Positions 1-37,664 of a stretch of DNA of 64,000 nt are shown here, piece by piece. The notes under the pieces are model-generated. The model worked only from the letters and a program-made list of their open reading frames with translations. It ran no database searches and was not told where the DNA came from. The DNA is from Dehalococcoidia bacterium (GTDB lineage: Bacteria; Chloroflexota; Dehalococcoidia; Lucifugimonadales; HRBIN23), in NCBI GenBank assembly GCA_025060295.1, contig JANXCH010000002.1, forward strand, positions 1 to 64,000. Direction: 5' to 3'. Position numbers and translations under genes: made by a program. Each line of letters opens with the position of its first letter. Within the stretch, counting starts at the first letter, position 1.

Positions 1-345
1 CACCTCCAACCACCGCGCTGCCCCCGTGAAGGCGTTGGGGCCGAAGTCCAGCAGGGCGGTGAACAGGCCGTTGCTTACCCCCAGGTTGTTGGCATTCACC
101 TGGGGGCCGACCTGGGTGCCTCCTGTGGGGGCATCGTAGAGGCGGAACTGAAAGTCGCAGGTGCCGTTGACGGGGACGCCGTTGTGGAGCACCTGGCCCT
201 GGTAGGTGAAGGCGGTGCCGGGGGTGGAGGCGACGCCTGGGCCGGGGGGTTTAGGCTCGTCGGCCCGCAGGGCGGTGGCCAACACCATCCCGAGGACTAG
301 TGAGAGCCGAACGTCAAAACGCCCAGAAGGAAGCCTCTGCGCCAC
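1..345 (-). CDS. Secreted protein with FTYQGQ-type domain (partial, runs off the left edge)
   Basis: The visible 115 codons start at a GTG with a GGAGG site 7 nt upstream. Residues 12-30 form a hydrophobic stretch ending in ALRADE, which looks like a signal peptide. From about residue 47 there is the pattern FTYQGQ, then NGVPVNGTCDFQFRLYD, then NGLFTALLDFG and ARWLEV. This beta-rich module is common in secreted proteins of Chloroflexota and planctomycetes and in some tail-fibre-like proteins (family knowledge). The C-terminal part lies outside the window, so the full function cannot be given. It probably acts outside the membrane. An in-frame internal ATG exists within the signal peptide, but it lacks a ribosome site. 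Confidence 0.7.
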   Translation of the reverse strand, partial: MAQRLPSGRFDVRLSLVLGMVLATALRADEPKPPGPGVASTPGTAFTYQGQVLHNGVPVNGTCDFQFRLYDAPTGGTQVGPQVNANNLGVSNGLFTALLDFGPNAFTGAARWLEV

Positions 346-25854: not shown

Positions 25855-27732
25855 CTACACCGAACACTCCCCCTCGCCCCGCTCCACCTTGAACAGGGTG
25901 GTGCGAGCCCAGTCCATATACAGGTCTACCGTGCGGTCGCTGAGCGGGGGGATGTCCTTGAAGGCGGTGGCCACCTCTTCCAAGGGTTTGAGGCCAATTC
26001 TGGCTACAAACTGGGGGAACTCCTCCCCTTCCAGGCGCTTCTCCTTGTAGAAGGCCAGCAACGCACGCATAAATTCGGGGACGCGCTTGGCGGGGATTTT
26101 GACCCCCGGCAGGCGTTGCCCAAAGCGGGTGCCTTCAATGTCGGCTCCCCCGTACACACCTCCCAAGAACACCTCATAGGCGGGCACCTGCTCCCCCCCG
26201 GGCCCTTTCATGGCTGCGCCGTGCAGGCCAATGGAAGCGATGTGGTGCTGGGCGCACCCGTTGGGGCACCCGCTGATTTTGATGTGCAGCTTCTGTATGA
26301 GGGGGTCCTCCAAGAGCCCGTTGCTCGAGGCGAAGGTCTCCCGCAGGGCCTTGGCCACTCCCATGGCCGAGGTGATGCCCAGTTTACAACTGTCGGTGGC
26401 GGGGCAGGCCACCACATCGGTGATGGTGTTAACGCCCGGCTCTGCCAGGTTGATCTCCTTCAAGGCCTTCCACACGGCATACAAGGAGCCCTCTGGCACC
26501 CAGCGCAAAGCCAGGTTCTGCTCCTGGGTTACGCGCGCCCGCCCCCCGGTATACCGGCGCACGATGTCCGCCAGGACGGGGAACTGGGGGGCATAGATAT
26601 CTCCCAGGGGGATCTTGACGAAGGCCACATAGTAGCCCTTCTGCCTCTGCTCCAGGGTGTTGGTGCGTTTCCACTCTTGGAAGGCGGGGTCATCGGCTCC
26701 GTCCGCCTTGCCTGTGGGGGGTGGGGGAGGCGTTTCTCGATACAACTCCTCCACATCCATCAGGGGTGTGGGGTCAATGGGGCCGATGCTCTTGAGTTCC
26801 TCCTCCACCAACCCGCGGAAGGCATCTATCCCGATACGGTCTAGGAGTACCTTGATGCGGGCCATCATGCGGTTCTTGCGCAGGATGTCTGCCTTGTTGA
26901 AGACGGTCCATACCGCCAGGGCCACCCGCAGGTAATCCTCCACCGGGACGAAGTCGTAGAGGGGCTTAGCCAGACGGGGGAAGATGGAGGTGCCACCCCC
27001 CACATACACCTTGAACCCCTTGCGGAGGGTGCCGTTCTCCGGGCGCACCTGGGCCACAAAGGAGAGGTCGTGGATGAGGGAGGCCACGGCGTCGTGGTCG
27101 GGGCAGCCGCTGAAGGAGGTCTTGAACTTGCGGGGGAAGTCCTGGGTGATGGGGTGGCGCACGCCGAAGCGCACGTAGGCCACCAGGTAGGGGGTGGGGT
27201 CAAAGAGTTCGTCCGGGCAGACCCCTGCCAACGGCGGCCCCACCACGTTGCGCACCGTGTTCCCGCACGCCTCCCGTGAGGTCAATCCCCCCTTCCCCAG
27301 GATGCGCATAATCTCGGGCGTCTGCTCCAGGGGGATGTGGTGGAACTGCATGTTCTCCCGGGTGGTGAAGTGGCCCTTCTGGAGGGGGGCGAAGCGCTGG
27401 GCCACCTCTCCCAGGGCCTCCAGGGCCTCGGGGGTGAGGATGCCCCCGGGGATTTTCACCCGGAACATCTGGCGGTTGGGCTGGCGCTGGCCGTAGACCC
27501 CCTGGCGCAGGCGGAAGCGCATGAAGGTGGCCTCGTCCACCTGCCCCGCCCGAAACTTGGCCACCGCCTCCTCAAAGCGCTCCACCTCCTCCTCCATATA
27601 GGGGATGACGGCCTTTTTGGTATGGCGGGCCAGTTCCAGGCTGCGCTGGTAGACCTCCTCCTGGGGGGGACCAGCCAGGGCGGCTATGCCGGCTGGTGTA
27701 GCCTCGACGGAGCATCCGCACACCTTGCACAT
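25855..27732 (-). CDS. Ferredoxin-type sulfite reductase (siroheme and 4Fe-4S)
   Basis: 625 residues with the two repeated halves of the nitrite/sulfite reductase family. The siroheme-4Fe-4S ligands are C-x5-C at 443 and 449 and C-x3-C at 489 and 493. The N-terminus MCKVCGC is a small cysteine cluster before the first half. The enzyme performs a six-electron reduction. Sequence alone leaves sulfite or nitrite open; the two upstream siroheme genes fit both, while the polycysteine attenuator ahead of the operon argues for sulfite and cysteine synthesis (inference). Last gene of the operon, 17 nt after the methyltransferase. Confidence 0.88.
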   Translation of the reverse strand: MCKVCGCSVEATPAGIAALAGPPQEEVYQRSLELARHTKKAVIPYMEEEVERFEEAVAKFRAGQVDEATFMRFRLRQGVYGQRQPNRQMFRVKIPGGILTPEALEALGEVAQRFAPLQKGHFTTRENMQFHHIPLEQTPEIMRILGKGGLTSREACGNTVRNVVGPPLAGVCPDELFDPTPYLVAYVRFGVRHPITQDFPRKFKTSFSGCPDHDAVASLIHDLSFVAQVRPENGTLRKGFKVYVGGGTSIFPRLAKPLYDFVPVEDYLRVALAVWTVFNKADILRKNRMMARIKVLLDRIGIDAFRGLVEEELKSIGPIDPTPLMDVEELYRETPPPPPTGKADGADDPAFQEWKRTNTLEQRQKGYYVAFVKIPLGDIYAPQFPVLADIVRRYTGGRARVTQEQNLALRWVPEGSLYAVWKALKEINLAEPGVNTITDVVACPATDSCKLGITSAMGVAKALRETFASSNGLLEDPLIQKLHIKISGCPNGCAQHHIASIGLHGAAMKGPGGEQVPAYEVFLGGVYGGADIEGTRFGQRLPGVKIPAKRVPEFMRALLAFYKEKRLEGEEFPQFVARIGLKPLEEVATAFKDIPPLSDRTVDLYMDWARTTLFKVERGEGECSV

Positions 27733-27749: not shown

Positions 27750-28547
27750 TTAGATGTGGGGGGCGCTGCTCCCTATGGGCAGGAGGCTCGCGCTCCTTGT
27801 GGGCGGGGGGTTGCCGATGCCCGAGCGCTTTTCGGCCCAGGCGATGCGCTCCCGCAGGCGCACCACCTCCCCCACCACCATCACGGCGGGGGCCTGGAGG
27901 CTGGCGTTACGGGCCGTCTGTATCGCCTGGCCCAGGGTGGTGACCAGTGTCCTCTGGGAGGGGAGGGTGCCCTGCTCAATGAAGGCTACTGGTGTCCCCT
28001 CTGTCCAACCCTGGTGGCGCAGGCGCTCCACCACTTGGGACAGCGCCCCCACAGGCATCAGCACGACGACTGTTTCCTGCTGTGGAGGCAGGGTAGTGCC
28101 TGCCCCATGCCCGGCGATAATCCGCAGGCCGGCGGCGTAGCGCCTATCGGTAACGGGGATGCCGGCATAGGCGGGGACGGCGATGGCGGAGGAGACGCCC
28201 GGCACCACCTCAAAGGGGATGCCCGCAGCGGCCAAGGCCTCGGCCTCCTCGCCTCCCCTTCCGAACACAAAGGGGTCGCCCCCCTTCAAGCGTACCACCC
28301 GTTTCCCCCGGCGGGCGTAGCCTACCAGCAGGGCGTTGATAACCTCTTGGGGGTAGGTGTGGTGGCCGGGCTCTTTCCCCACGGGCACCTTCTCGGCAGC
28401 GGGCGGGGCCTCGGCCACCAGGTCGGGATGTACCAGGCGGTCGTACACCACCACCTCCGCCGTGCGCAGGAGGCGTAGACCCTTGACGGTTATCAAGCCC
28501 GGGTCGCCCGGCCCCGCTCCCACTATGTAGACCGTCCCCAGCCTCAT
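27750..28547 (-). CDS. cobA: Uroporphyrinogen-III C-methyltransferase
   Basis: 265 residues. It transfers two methyl groups from SAM to uroporphyrinogen III to give precorrin-2, the precursor of siroheme and B12. Visible motifs are VGAGPGDPGLITVKG at residues 9-23, RLKGGDPFVFGRGGEEA near 90-106, VPGVSSAIAVPAYAGIPVT and FIEQGTLPSQRT. The start was placed at the ATG overlapping the upstream stop (ATGA); the longer open frame upstream lies inside the previous gene. A 30-residue Pro/Ser tail follows the family domain. It supplies precorrin-2 to the neighbouring dehydrogenase. Confidence 0.95.
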   Translation of the reverse strand: MRLGTVYIVGAGPGDPGLITVKGLRLLRTAEVVVYDRLVHPDLVAEAPPAAEKVPVGKEPGHHTYPQEVINALLVGYARRGKRVVRLKGGDPFVFGRGGEEAEALAAAGIPFEVVPGVSSAIAVPAYAGIPVTDRRYAAGLRIIAGHGAGTTLPPQQETVVVLMPVGALSQVVERLRHQGWTEGTPVAFIEQGTLPSQRTLVTTLGQAIQTARNASLQAPAVMVVGEVVRLRERIAWAEKRSGIGNPPPTRSASLLPIGSSAPHI

Positions 28548-29281
28548 ATCTTCTCTCCCTCCTGGGAAAGGGGGTGTGTGCCCGTCGCGGTCAAACGGGT
28601 CAGCAAGTGCTCCCACAGGCCCTCCCAGTCGTGGGCCGACAGCAGGCGTTGGGTCTCCGGACTGTGGAGGGCCTCCTGCCAGGCTTGGGGGGAGGGGTGT
28701 ATCCCCCGACGGCGCACCTCCCGCCGCAGCAGGGCCACCATGTCCAGCAAAGTTCCCCACTCTTCGGGGAGCAGGTGCTCCAGGCGCTCTCGAATGAAGC
28801 GCGCCAGCGCCGGGGAGAGGCCGTTGGTGGAGATGGCGATGGTCAACGCCCCCCGCTGGACAATGGCGGGGGCGATCCAGGTGCACAGGTGGGGTGTGTC
28901 CACCACATTCAGGAGCACACCTTCCCTTTGGGCCTCCTGGGCGATGCGGCGGGAGAGGGGGTAGTCGGCGGTAGTGGCAGAGATGGCCAAGAAGGCCCCG
29001 CGCAGGTCGCCCTCCTGGTAGGGGCGTTGATGGAGGGTGATGTGCCCCGCCTCGGCCAGAGCCACCAGTCCCGAGGTCGGATGGGGGGTGAGCACCGTAA
29101 CCTGGGCACCCGCCTCCCGCAAGGCGCGCACTTTACGCTCCACCTCTTCCCCCGTGCCGATGACCACACATCGCCGTCCTTGCAGGTTCAGGAACACGGG
29201 GAAGTAGGCGATGTGGGCTGGAGAGGGGGGTAGTTTCCCCCGCTCCCATCGTGTCTGCTCCTGTGTCTCCTGGTGTGCCAC
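28544..29281 (-). CDS. Precorrin-2 dehydrogenase / sirohydrochlorin ferrochelatase (CysG N-terminal type)
   Basis: 245 residues. The protein converts precorrin-2 to sirohydrochlorin with NAD and may insert iron to form siroheme. Landmarks are YFPVFLNLQGRRCVVIGTGEEVERKV (Rossmann motif with GTG instead of the usual GGG), LSATT-like AISATTADYPLS and VVDTPHLCTWIAPAIVQRGALTIAISTNGLSPALAR. It is a stand-alone CysG N-half, with the methyltransferase half encoded next. GTG start with GGGGAG 6 nt upstream. It is the first structural gene behind the attenuator. Confidence 0.9.
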   Translation of the reverse strand: MAHQETQEQTRWERGKLPPSPAHIAYFPVFLNLQGRRCVVIGTGEEVERKVRALREAGAQVTVLTPHPTSGLVALAEAGHITLHQRPYQEGDLRGAFLAISATTADYPLSRRIAQEAQREGVLLNVVDTPHLCTWIAPAIVQRGALTIAISTNGLSPALARFIRERLEHLLPEEWGTLLDMVALLRREVRRRGIHPSPQAWQEALHSPETQRLLSAHDWEGLWEHLLTRLTATGTHPLSQEGEKI

Positions 29282-29305
29282 GGTGGGCTCCCCACAAAAA
29301 AGATT

Positions 29306-29369
29306 GCGCCCCGCTCTGCCACAAACGCCGAGCGGGGCGCAGCGCTGGTCTTCCCTATGCGCTGGCCCC
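29306..29369 (-). promoter_or_regulatory. trp-type attenuator: mutually exclusive antiterminator and terminator
   Basis: On the minus strand the antiterminator pairs 29369-29359 (GGGGCCAGCGC) with 29345-29334 (GCGCTGCGCCCC): eleven pairs with one bulged C. The terminator pairs 29340-29330 (GCGCCCCGCTC) with 29316-29306 (GAGCGGGGCGC), eleven perfect pairs, then AATC and six U. The two helices share 29340-29334 and cannot coexist. The 5' arm of the antiterminator starts at the last base of the leader ORF stop codon, so a ribosome finishing the leader would cover it and favour termination. A short alternative GCCC/GGGC hairpin between leader and 5' arm would act as protector when there is no translation. 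Confidence 0.7.
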
Positions 29370-29416
29370 TATGGAGGGCAACAACACCCTGCAATTCCCG
29401 AAAAGCGTGTCAGCAT
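29369..29416 (-). CDS. Polycysteine leader peptide (15 aa), predicted cysteine sensor
   Basis: ATG to TAG open frame encoding MLTRFSGIAGCCCPP, with three adjacent cysteine codons (TGT TGT TGC) at positions 11-13. The ATG lies 10 nt after the -10 box, so the mRNA is nearly leaderless; a weak AAAGAG is the only ribosome-site candidate. When cysteinyl-tRNA is short a ribosome should stall on the Cys run, leaving the antiterminator arm free; when cysteine is ample it reaches the stop and blocks it. Leaderless polycysteine ORFs controlling cysteine genes are known in mycobacteria. The downstream siroheme and sulfite reductase genes fit this signal. Confidence 0.65.
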   Translation of the reverse strand: MLTRFSGIAGCCCPP

Positions 29417-29425
29417 ATCAACTAC

Positions 29426-29454
29426 TCTTTACCAGCCCCCACAGGAGCTGTCAA
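29426..29454 (-). promoter_or_regulatory. Promoter of the siroheme/sulfite reductase operon
   Basis: Minus strand TTGACA, 17-nt spacer, TAAAGA. The predicted transcription start at about 29419 is 3 nt before the leader ATG, and the leader to the first gene is about 138 nt. Confidence 0.6.
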
Positions 29455-29722: not shown

Positions 29723-30985
29723 TTATACAAAGCCCCGCAACTGGATAGCCCGCGCCACACGGCTCACCCCGATGATATAGGCCGCCTCCCGCAGAGAGAC
29801 ACCGTGAAGGCGCGACGCCTCCACAACGGCACGCGTGGCGCGGGTCATCACCTTATACAGTTCCAGGTTGACCTGATCCTCGTCCCAGCGGAACTGCTGG
29901 ATGTTCTGCGTCCACTCAAAGTAGGAGACCACCACGCCCCCGGCATTCACCAGGATGTCGGGAAGGATGATGGCTCCCCTCTCCCGCAGGATAATATCGG
30001 CTCGGGGGGTAAGGGGGTGGTTGGCTGCCTCCACGATGATGCGGGCCTTAATGCGGGAGGCGTTGCCCTCGTGAATCACATGCTCAATGGCGGCAGGAAT
30101 CAGGATGTCGCAGGGGAGTTCCAGGAAGGTCTGGTTATCCACCGCCTCGGCCTCGGGGAAGCCCACGACCGATCCCGTTTGGCGGGCGTGCTCCAGGAGA
30201 CGGGGGATGTCTAAGCCGCGGGGGTTATAGACGCCCCCCTGTATATCGGCCACTCCTATCACGGTGCATCCTAAGGAGCCGATGAGGCGGGCCACCCACG
30301 AGCCGACTTGCCCAAAGCCCTGGATAAGCACCGTGGCCCCTCGCAGATTGGAGGAGGTGAGGCGGGCCCACTCCTCCATGCAGTTGACTAACCCCCGCCC
30401 GGGGGCGGCCTCCCGCCCGGCGGAGCCACCCAGTTCCACCGGCTTGCCCGTAACGATGGCGGGGGTATAGCCGTGCAGTTGGCCGTAGGCATCCATCATC
30501 CAGGCCATCACCTGGGCGTTGGTGCCCAGGTCGGGGCCGGGGATGTCCCGATGCACCCCCAGGATGTGGTTAATGCTCTGAATGTAGCGGCGGGTGAGAC
30601 GATTGAGTTCGGCCGTACTCAACTGACTGGGGTCGCAGGCGATGCCCCCCTTGGCCCCGCCGAAGGGCACATCGGCCACGGCCGTTTTCCAGGTCATCAG
30701 AGCGGCCAGAGCGCGCACCTCGTCCAGGTCGGCCTGGGGGTGATAACGCACGCCCCCTTTGTAGGGGCCGCGGGCGGCATTGTGCTGGACGCGGTAGCCT
30801 ACGAACACCTTCACCTGCCCGTTGTCCAGGCGCACCGGCACCTGCACAGTCAGTTCCCGCCAGGGCAAGCGCAGCATGTCACGCAGGCTGCTCTCTAGAC
30901 GCAGGCGTTCGGCCGCCTGGTCAAAGAACCAGCACACCGCCTCGAAGGAGGATGCATCATCGGGAGGGGGAACGGACACGGCCAT
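29723..30985 (-). CDS. gdhA: Glutamate dehydrogenase (Glu/Leu/Phe/Val dehydrogenase family)
   Basis: 420 residues, the normal hexameric GDH length. It interconverts glutamate and 2-oxoglutarate plus ammonia with NAD(P). Landmarks: GPYKGGVRYHP near residues 73-83, catalytic lysine region VPFGGAKGGIACDP near 106-119, DIPGPDLGTN and dinucleotide motif IQGFGQVGSWVARL. The C-terminal GVSLREAAYIIGVSRVARA is typical. Coenzyme preference cannot be read with certainty. A pair of 16-bp direct repeats just upstream could be regulatory. It could supply glutamate for the proline pathway encoded 4 kb away. Confidence 0.95.
   Translation of the reverse strand: MAVSVPPPDDASSFEAVCWFFDQAAERLRLESSLRDMLRLPWRELTVQVPVRLDNGQVKVFVGYRVQHNAARGPYKGGVRYHPQADLDEVRALAALMTWKTAVADVPFGGAKGGIACDPSQLSTAELNRLTRRYIQSINHILGVHRDIPGPDLGTNAQVMAWMMDAYGQLHGYTPAIVTGKPVELGGSAGREAAPGRGLVNCMEEWARLTSSNLRGATVLIQGFGQVGSWVARLIGSLGCTVIGVADIQGGVYNPRGLDIPRLLEHARQTGSVVGFPEAEAVDNQTFLELPCDILIPAAIEHVIHEGNASRIKARIIVEAANHPLTPRADIILRERGAIILPDILVNAGGVVVSYFEWTQNIQQFRWDEDQVNLELYKVMTRATRAVVEASRLHGVSLREAAYIIGVSRVARAIQLRGFV

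Positions 30986-37589: not shown

Positions 37590-37664
<75 letters not shown>

Follow-up and report, generated by a model that had tools for sequence, protein, structure and literature searches.

A Putative Cysteine-Responsive Attenuator with a Predicted Leaderless Leader Peptide Upstream of Siroheme and Sulfite Reductase Genes in Dehalococcoidia

Introduction

Ribosome-mediated attenuation of the trp type is known for the trp, his and ilv operons of Proteobacteria and the trp operons of Corynebacterium and Streptomyces (PMC1262725). We compared these systems with a leader found in the window, i.e., the 64,000-nucleotide stretch of Dehalococcoidia bacterium DNA analysed here. The leader shares with them the repeated regulatory codons, the stop codon at the antiterminator arm, the mutually exclusive protector, antiterminator and terminator, and the U-run before the first gene. 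It differs from them in its signal, inferred to be cysteine, in its predicted leaderless start and in its Chloroflexota host. The criteria of clustered codons for the pathway amino acid, an intrinsic terminator and an exclusive, covarying antiterminator were met. The criterion that the antiterminator is freed by a ribosome stalled at Cys and covered by one at the stop codon was met in constraint folding only.

Leaderless polycysteine ORFs of mycobacteria have been described as translation attenuation (Canestrari et al. 2020, doi 10.1111/mmi.14498; cited in PMC13236596, PMC9031893 and PMC9094748). The leader in the window has in common with these ORFs adjacent Cys codons and a downstream cysteine-pathway operon, so that this mycobacterial-type criterion was met; a leaderless start like theirs is predicted from promoter spacing alone. 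However, no terminator is obvious in the cys leaders of mycobacteria (PMC1262725), whereas the leader in the window has an intrinsic terminator and a covarying antiterminator. Because of the terminator we did not file it as a mycobacterial-type attenuator, which refines the likeness to these ORFs drawn in an earlier note on the window. Seliverstov et al. (2005, PMC1262725) predicted Cys leaders in Mycobacterium, Propionibacterium acnes and Bifidobacterium longum (cbs in Bifidobacterium), found no conserved terminator hairpins in these actinobacterial leaders and called their mode of regulation unknown. A short ORF, a run of Cys codons near its stop and downstream cys genes are shared with the leader in the window; the terminator and antiterminator present in the latter are missing.

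Leader-peptide attenuation has been described mainly from Proteobacteria and Actinobacteria, the groups in which Naville and Gautheret (2010, PMC2965389) placed such systems; they added one Firmicutes case. The literature that we searched contained no paper joining cysteine, a leader peptide, transcription attenuation and sulfite reductase, which is weak evidence given the poor coverage of subscription journals. Nothing relevant was found on leader peptides in Chloroflexi, again with incomplete coverage, and within these limits the statement of the earlier note that no such system is known in Chloroflexota held. The finding would extend leader-peptide attenuation to a deep, mostly uncultured group, and it supplies the terminator and antiterminator that are absent from the known actinobacterial cysteine leaders.

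Results and Discussion

Structure of the leader and the downstream operon

The whole feature lies on the minus strand from 29454 to 29281, from TTGACA through the GTG start of the first gene. Its elements and the genes that follow are listed below with the basis of each assignment.

29449-29454, minus strand: -35 hexamer TTGACA (read from the sequence)
29426-29431, minus strand: -10 hexamer TAAAGA, with TGG ahead of it (read from the sequence)
29369-29416, minus strand: leader ORF MLTRFSGIAGCCCPP and its stop codon, 15 codons (sequence; homologue in bacterium HR23; Cys-rich leaders across the order)
29378-29386, minus strand: putative regulatory Cys codons TGT TGT TGC (sequence)
29369-29371, minus strand: leader stop codon TAG (sequence)
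29359-29382, minus strand: protector (1:2), hairpin GCCCTccataGGGGC plus the remainder of segment 2 (29369-29359) (covariation across 37 genera)
29334-29369, minus strand: antiterminator (2:3), GGGGCCAGCGC at 29369-29359 with GCGCTGCGCCCC at 29345-29334 (folding, conservation in HR23, partner-swap test)
29296-29340, minus strand: intrinsic terminator (3:4), stem GCGCCCCGCTC at 29340-29330 with GAGCGGGGCGC at 29316-29306, then AATCTTTTTT to 29296 (folding; covariance model)
28544-29281, minus strand: first gene, precorrin-2 dehydrogenase (CysG N-terminal domain), GTG start (TIGR01470, E 7e-48; PF13241)
27750-28673, minus strand: uroporphyrinogen-III C-methyltransferase (TIGR01469, E 8e-85); exact start not fixed, the longest ORF reaches 28886
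25855-27732, minus strand: sulfite/nitrite reductase hemoprotein, NirA/Sir type (PF01077, PF03460)

The hexamers TTGACA and TAAAGA are separated by 17 nt, and the ATG at 29416 (minus strand) follows 9 nt past the -10. A strict consensus scan reported neither a promoter nor a terminator at the leader, because the -10 has no final T and the hairpin fails the stem-loop rule of the scan. Sites of the form TTGACA-16..18-TANANN-5..10-ATG occurred only 3 times in the 1.6-Mb genome, this one included, and the reversed-pattern control gave 0. A TTGACA-TATAAT promoter precedes the 16S rRNA gene of this genome, which indicates that such promoters are used. All of the promoter-selected leaders described below carried ATG or GTG 6-10 nt downstream of the -10, so that the 5' UTR would be about 0-4 nt long and a Shine-Dalgarno sequence cannot fit. 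From this spacing the leader ORF is predicted to be translated leaderless; the 5' end is unmapped. Leaderless genes have been predicted for 4 of 12 Chloroflexi genomes (PMC3160421).

In regards to the RNA, the protector helix pairs GCCCT, within codons 13-15, with GGGGC; at -6.6 kcal/mol it is weak here and stronger in relatives. The antiterminator has 11 pairs and one bulged C, with an energy of about -24.0 kcal/mol, loop included. The terminator stem, also of 11 pairs (-28.7 kcal/mol), is followed by the U-run AATCTTTTTT. Bases 29340-29334 belong to both the antiterminator and the terminator, which makes the two pairings mutually exclusive. The earlier note had claimed a TTGACA/TAAAGA promoter with a nearby ATG, a 15-codon ORF with TGT TGT TGC, an 11-pair antiterminator at the stop, and an overlapping 11-pair terminator with a U-run before the ribosome site of the first gene. 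All of these held. The antiterminator arm does not merely abut the stop, as had been stated, because its first base is the last base (G) of TAG, a one-base overlap; furthermore, the protector helix GCCCT/GGGGC had been missed.

The single-sequence fold of the leader was unexceptional (z about -1.5), as is possible for a switch that alternates between folds. Since neither the single fold nor the strict consensus scan was informative, the evidence beyond chance is comparative, and consists of conservation within the genus, promoter-first Cys enrichment and helix covariation. The covariance model matched the leader at 29297-29389 with an E value of 6e-15, which is not independent because this leader was among the sequences used to build the model. 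No Rfam family matched at the leader, and the search of the whole window gave only a tRNA at 37590.

A GGGGAG ribosome site is placed 6 nt ahead of the GTG at 29281, and the start of the first gene, GTGGCACAC, is conserved in HR23. The domain matches indicate that the operon combines siroheme synthesis with a siroheme-requiring enzyme, on the route to cysteine. The sulfite reductase begins (27697-27732, minus strand) with MCKVCGCSVEAT, for which HR23 has VCKVCGCSVEAT; this Cys-rich N-terminal extension was unaligned in other homologues.

Conservation of the leader

A scan of genome contigs returned one relative, bacterium HR23 of the same genus. Its promoter is TTGACA-17-TAAAGG, in which the 17-nt spacing is kept despite a diverged spacer sequence, and an ATG 10 nt on opens the 15-codon leader MVIWYSGICECCCPS. 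The Cys codons and the same helices, with changed bases, are retained, and the N-terminus of the leader has diverged. Another genome of the same family, G002, lacked a leader ahead of both its CysG and its sulfite reductase gene. A search upstream of CysG in other families did not find the leader, because there it lies upstream of the sulfite reductase gene; at some loci CysG comes after another coding gene.

Homologues of the sulfite reductase were present in 181 of the 250 genomes of the order. We examined 108 sulfite reductase upstream regions from 25 families using a promoter-first search that ignores coding content (TTGACA with ≤1 mismatch, 16-18 nt, TANNNT, ATG or GTG 5-11 nt later). A promoter with a start codon was found in 79 of the 108 regions. 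The ORFs selected in this way contained at least 2 Cys in 75 cases and at least 1 Cys in 77, and Cys made up 19.6% of the residues. The reverse-strand control gave 4 promoters and 0 ORFs with 2 Cys. The commonest form of the -10 across the order was TAGACT, and most of the 79 regions also had the 17-nt spacing. This search provides the unbiased count, as the sets used for terminators, partner swapping and stop-to-stem distances were partly picked by Cys content. The sequences share ancestry and the counts are thus not independent, which genus and family representatives correct only in part. The regions scored as missing include single-Cys leaders and leaders without TTGACA (family f19); a minority probably lack the leader altogether. 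Upstream of the sulfite reductase gene of G004 the same promoter and leaderless start are present, but the ORF, MTRPELMANNSSENVPLLSVMIQSPPVY, has no Cys.

Terminators followed 86 of 87 leaders, with a median stop-to-stem distance of 32 nt. The consensus segments of the largest family were ACCTGTCCCC (codons Thr-Cys-Pro-Pro), GGGGGCAGGT, ACCTGCGCCCACC and GGTGGGTTTTTT; segment 3 nearly copies segment 1, and segment 2 can pair with either.

Covariation of the three helices

RNAalifold on the mixed alignment recovered the terminator core only, because the families are out of register. We therefore used an alignment-free partner-swap test, in which segments were exchanged between genera (one sequence per genus, 37 genera, 5000 permutations). 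The terminator had a native energy of -22.4 kcal/mol against -14.3 kcal/mol for swapped partners, the antiterminator -15.3 against -13.7 kcal/mol, and the protector -14.6 against -12.0 kcal/mol (0 of 5000 permutations in each case). With one sequence per family, 32 of 5000 permutations were counted for the antiterminator and 67 of 5000 for the protector. The control pairings 1:3, 1:4 and 2:4 showed no preference for the native partner in this test. Column-wise counts supported the protector and the terminator, and were weak for the antiterminator because families do not align in register. Segmentation by the stop codon gave z near 0 in genera with a moved stop, and we took the last Cys codon as the reference point instead. 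These results show that three competing helices are supported over 37 genera.

Ribosome position and proposed mechanism

We folded the RNA under the constraint of a ribosome assumed to cover 15 nt beyond the first base of the P-site codon; for the window the transcript up to the terminator loop was used. In the window the antiterminator formed with probability 1.0 when the A site held Cys1 or Cys2; the value was 0.82 for Cys3 and 0 for the stop codon. Over the 37 genera, a ribosome at the first Cys gave a sequestration of the terminator 5' arm of 0.44, compared with 0.16 for one at the stop; the shift had the direction seen in the window in 25 genera and the opposite direction in 1. In the full-length RNA at equilibrium the terminator was preferred in every state (-28.7 vs -24.0 kcal/mol). 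These values indicate that the switch must be kinetic, i.e., decided during transcription.

We propose that RNA polymerase would start 0-4 nt ahead of the ATG and that a ribosome would load on the nascent 5' end without a Shine-Dalgarno sequence. When Cys-tRNA is plentiful, the ribosome would reach the stop codon and mask segment 2 (GGGGCCAGCGC), segment 3 would pair with segment 4, and the resulting terminator would stop transcription short of the genes for siroheme synthesis and sulfite reductase. A shortage of Cys-tRNA would instead stall the ribosome at TGT TGT TGC, with the protector masked and segment 2 exposed. The free segment 2 would then take segment 3 before segment 4 exists, and polymerase would enter the operon. 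Because the protector is weak in this genome, an untranslated leader should read through; the outcome could be different in relatives with strong protectors.

We consider it very likely that the locus attenuates transcription in response to cysteine, by way of a ribosome that translates a leaderless leader peptide, on evidence that includes no data on expression, 5' ends, termination or the cysteine response. Sequence and comparison establish that the elements are present and conserved, that the leaders are enriched in Cys and that the helices covary; where transcription starts, that translation is leaderless, that Cys-tRNA is the signal and that the switch operates are inferred. The earlier note had inferred cysteine-sensing attenuation, and had suggested looking in close relatives for the Cys codons and both helices, and for covariation in the latter. 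The inference is supported, with the transcription start, cysteine response and terminator activity remaining inferences; HR23 keeps all of these elements, and the partner-swap test found covariation in both antiterminator and terminator. Leaderless initiation depends on an intact 70S ribosome and a free 5' end, and the mechanism raises the question of how it can keep up with polymerase. Because these short leaders are conserved along with their promoter, the tract could be transferred to a laboratory host or an in vitro test.

Alternative explanations

The closest rival is translation attenuation or Rho-dependent control as in mycobacteria, with an incidental hairpin. It would have the same input, namely a leaderless ORF with adjacent Cys codons and a downstream sulfite reductase or cys operon, and the ribosome site of the first gene comes directly after the hairpin. 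However, in 86 of 87 cases the leader is followed by a G+C-rich hairpin with a U-run, whereas actinobacterial cys leaders are without terminators (PMC1262725), and the covarying helices compete with the terminator and can be explained without any pairing of the ribosome site. We regard this reading as very unlikely. A ligand-binding riboswitch or T-box could control the terminator without translation; sulfur genes in other phyla are often under SAM riboswitches or T-boxes. Against it, Rfam gave no match at the leader, which is short, and the conserved part consists of Cys codons and three simple helices; this possibility is practically ruled out.

The hairpin might instead terminate the upstream, same-strand glutamate dehydrogenase gene (29723-30985), whose end is 380 nt from the hairpin, with the Cys ORF present by chance. 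A promoter and a conserved ORF intervene, however, and hairpin, Cys ORF and promoter occur together upstream of the sulfite reductase gene in many families, which leaves almost no room for this explanation. The Cys-rich ORF might also encode a functional small protein, e.g., a metal-binding one, to which the RNA structures are secondary. In favour of this, the N-terminal MR(F/H)xDDLFHLC is conserved in families f10, f11 and f15, even between sulfite-reductase and PAPS-reductase leaders. But most families conserve only the Cys codons near the stop and the helices, not the N-terminus, and the RNA element is constant while the position of the stop moves. A small protein as the primary function can be all but dismissed, and the transcription attenuator remains our preferred reading.

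Distribution across the order

With E ≤ 1e-4 as the limit, the covariance model, built from 31 leaders that match it by construction, had hits within the order in 80 of 247 genomes and in 42 of 97 genera. Second sites in the same genomes preceded thiF and cysteine synthase in most of the f41 genomes that were checked; in G036 (f35) such a site preceded a thiF gene. Others lay before a PAPS/APS reductase gene, either directly (G092, G048 and G025) or with an intervening TauE or permease gene (G096, G014 and G030), and one lay before TauE-sat (G021). From this recurrence at cysteine-synthesis operons we infer that the leaders form a regulon of more than one operon across the order, in which regulation is unmeasured; the single-operon scope of the earlier note is refined to a device recurring in many families.

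Outside the order the matches of the model were weak, and no Cys leader was seen at the five strongest. Among 28 sulfite reductase regions elsewhere in the class and phylum, 27 were without such a Cys leader. The exception, G385 of another class, has a Cys-rich ORF, MPGPHRTCACTCPQPPAARVGGPSAR, upstream of sulfite reductase; it lies well downstream of a TTGACA-TACACT promoter, its 5' UTR is longer, a terminator is not evident, and it may have arisen independently.

A bolder reading, taken as one joint claim, is that of an order-wide cysteine regulon, covering sulfite reductase with siroheme synthesis, thiF-cysteine synthase and PAPS/APS reductase with sat, of trp-type attenuators with leaderless leaders in which segment 3 mimics segment 1, the one that holds the Cys codons. 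We consider it likely. If true, this would be the first complete cysteine transcription attenuator and the first leader-peptide regulon known in the phylum, and 70S leaderless initiation would be shown able to drive attenuation.

Several minor observations were made on individual leaders. In G002 (L268, about 1465-1600), the leader MLRISDTLCICSSPSSGGGVS, with TTGACA-TAGACT and a terminator, precedes a DUF3303 gene. In G120 (L325), a short Cys-bearing ORF precedes two genes identified by eye, one oxidoreductase-like and the other probably encoding a methionine sulfoxide reductase; its membership in the regulon is possible and remains uncertain.

In some f41 genera the stop has moved downstream (CPPTEGAG-stop, CPPTAGAGKT-stop) or the frame has shifted (TCYIGTR-stop). 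These ORFs overlap segment 2, and the RNA element is conserved (L127, L134, L143-L147, L132, L140 and L141).

The leaders of f10, f11 and f15 share MR(F/Y/L/H)xDDLFHLC and have only 1-2 Cys. This N-terminus spans two operons, those of sulfite reductase (L116, L117, L118, L122 and L139) and PAPS reductase (L320 and L324), and may reflect either duplication or a role of the nascent peptide beyond codon counting.
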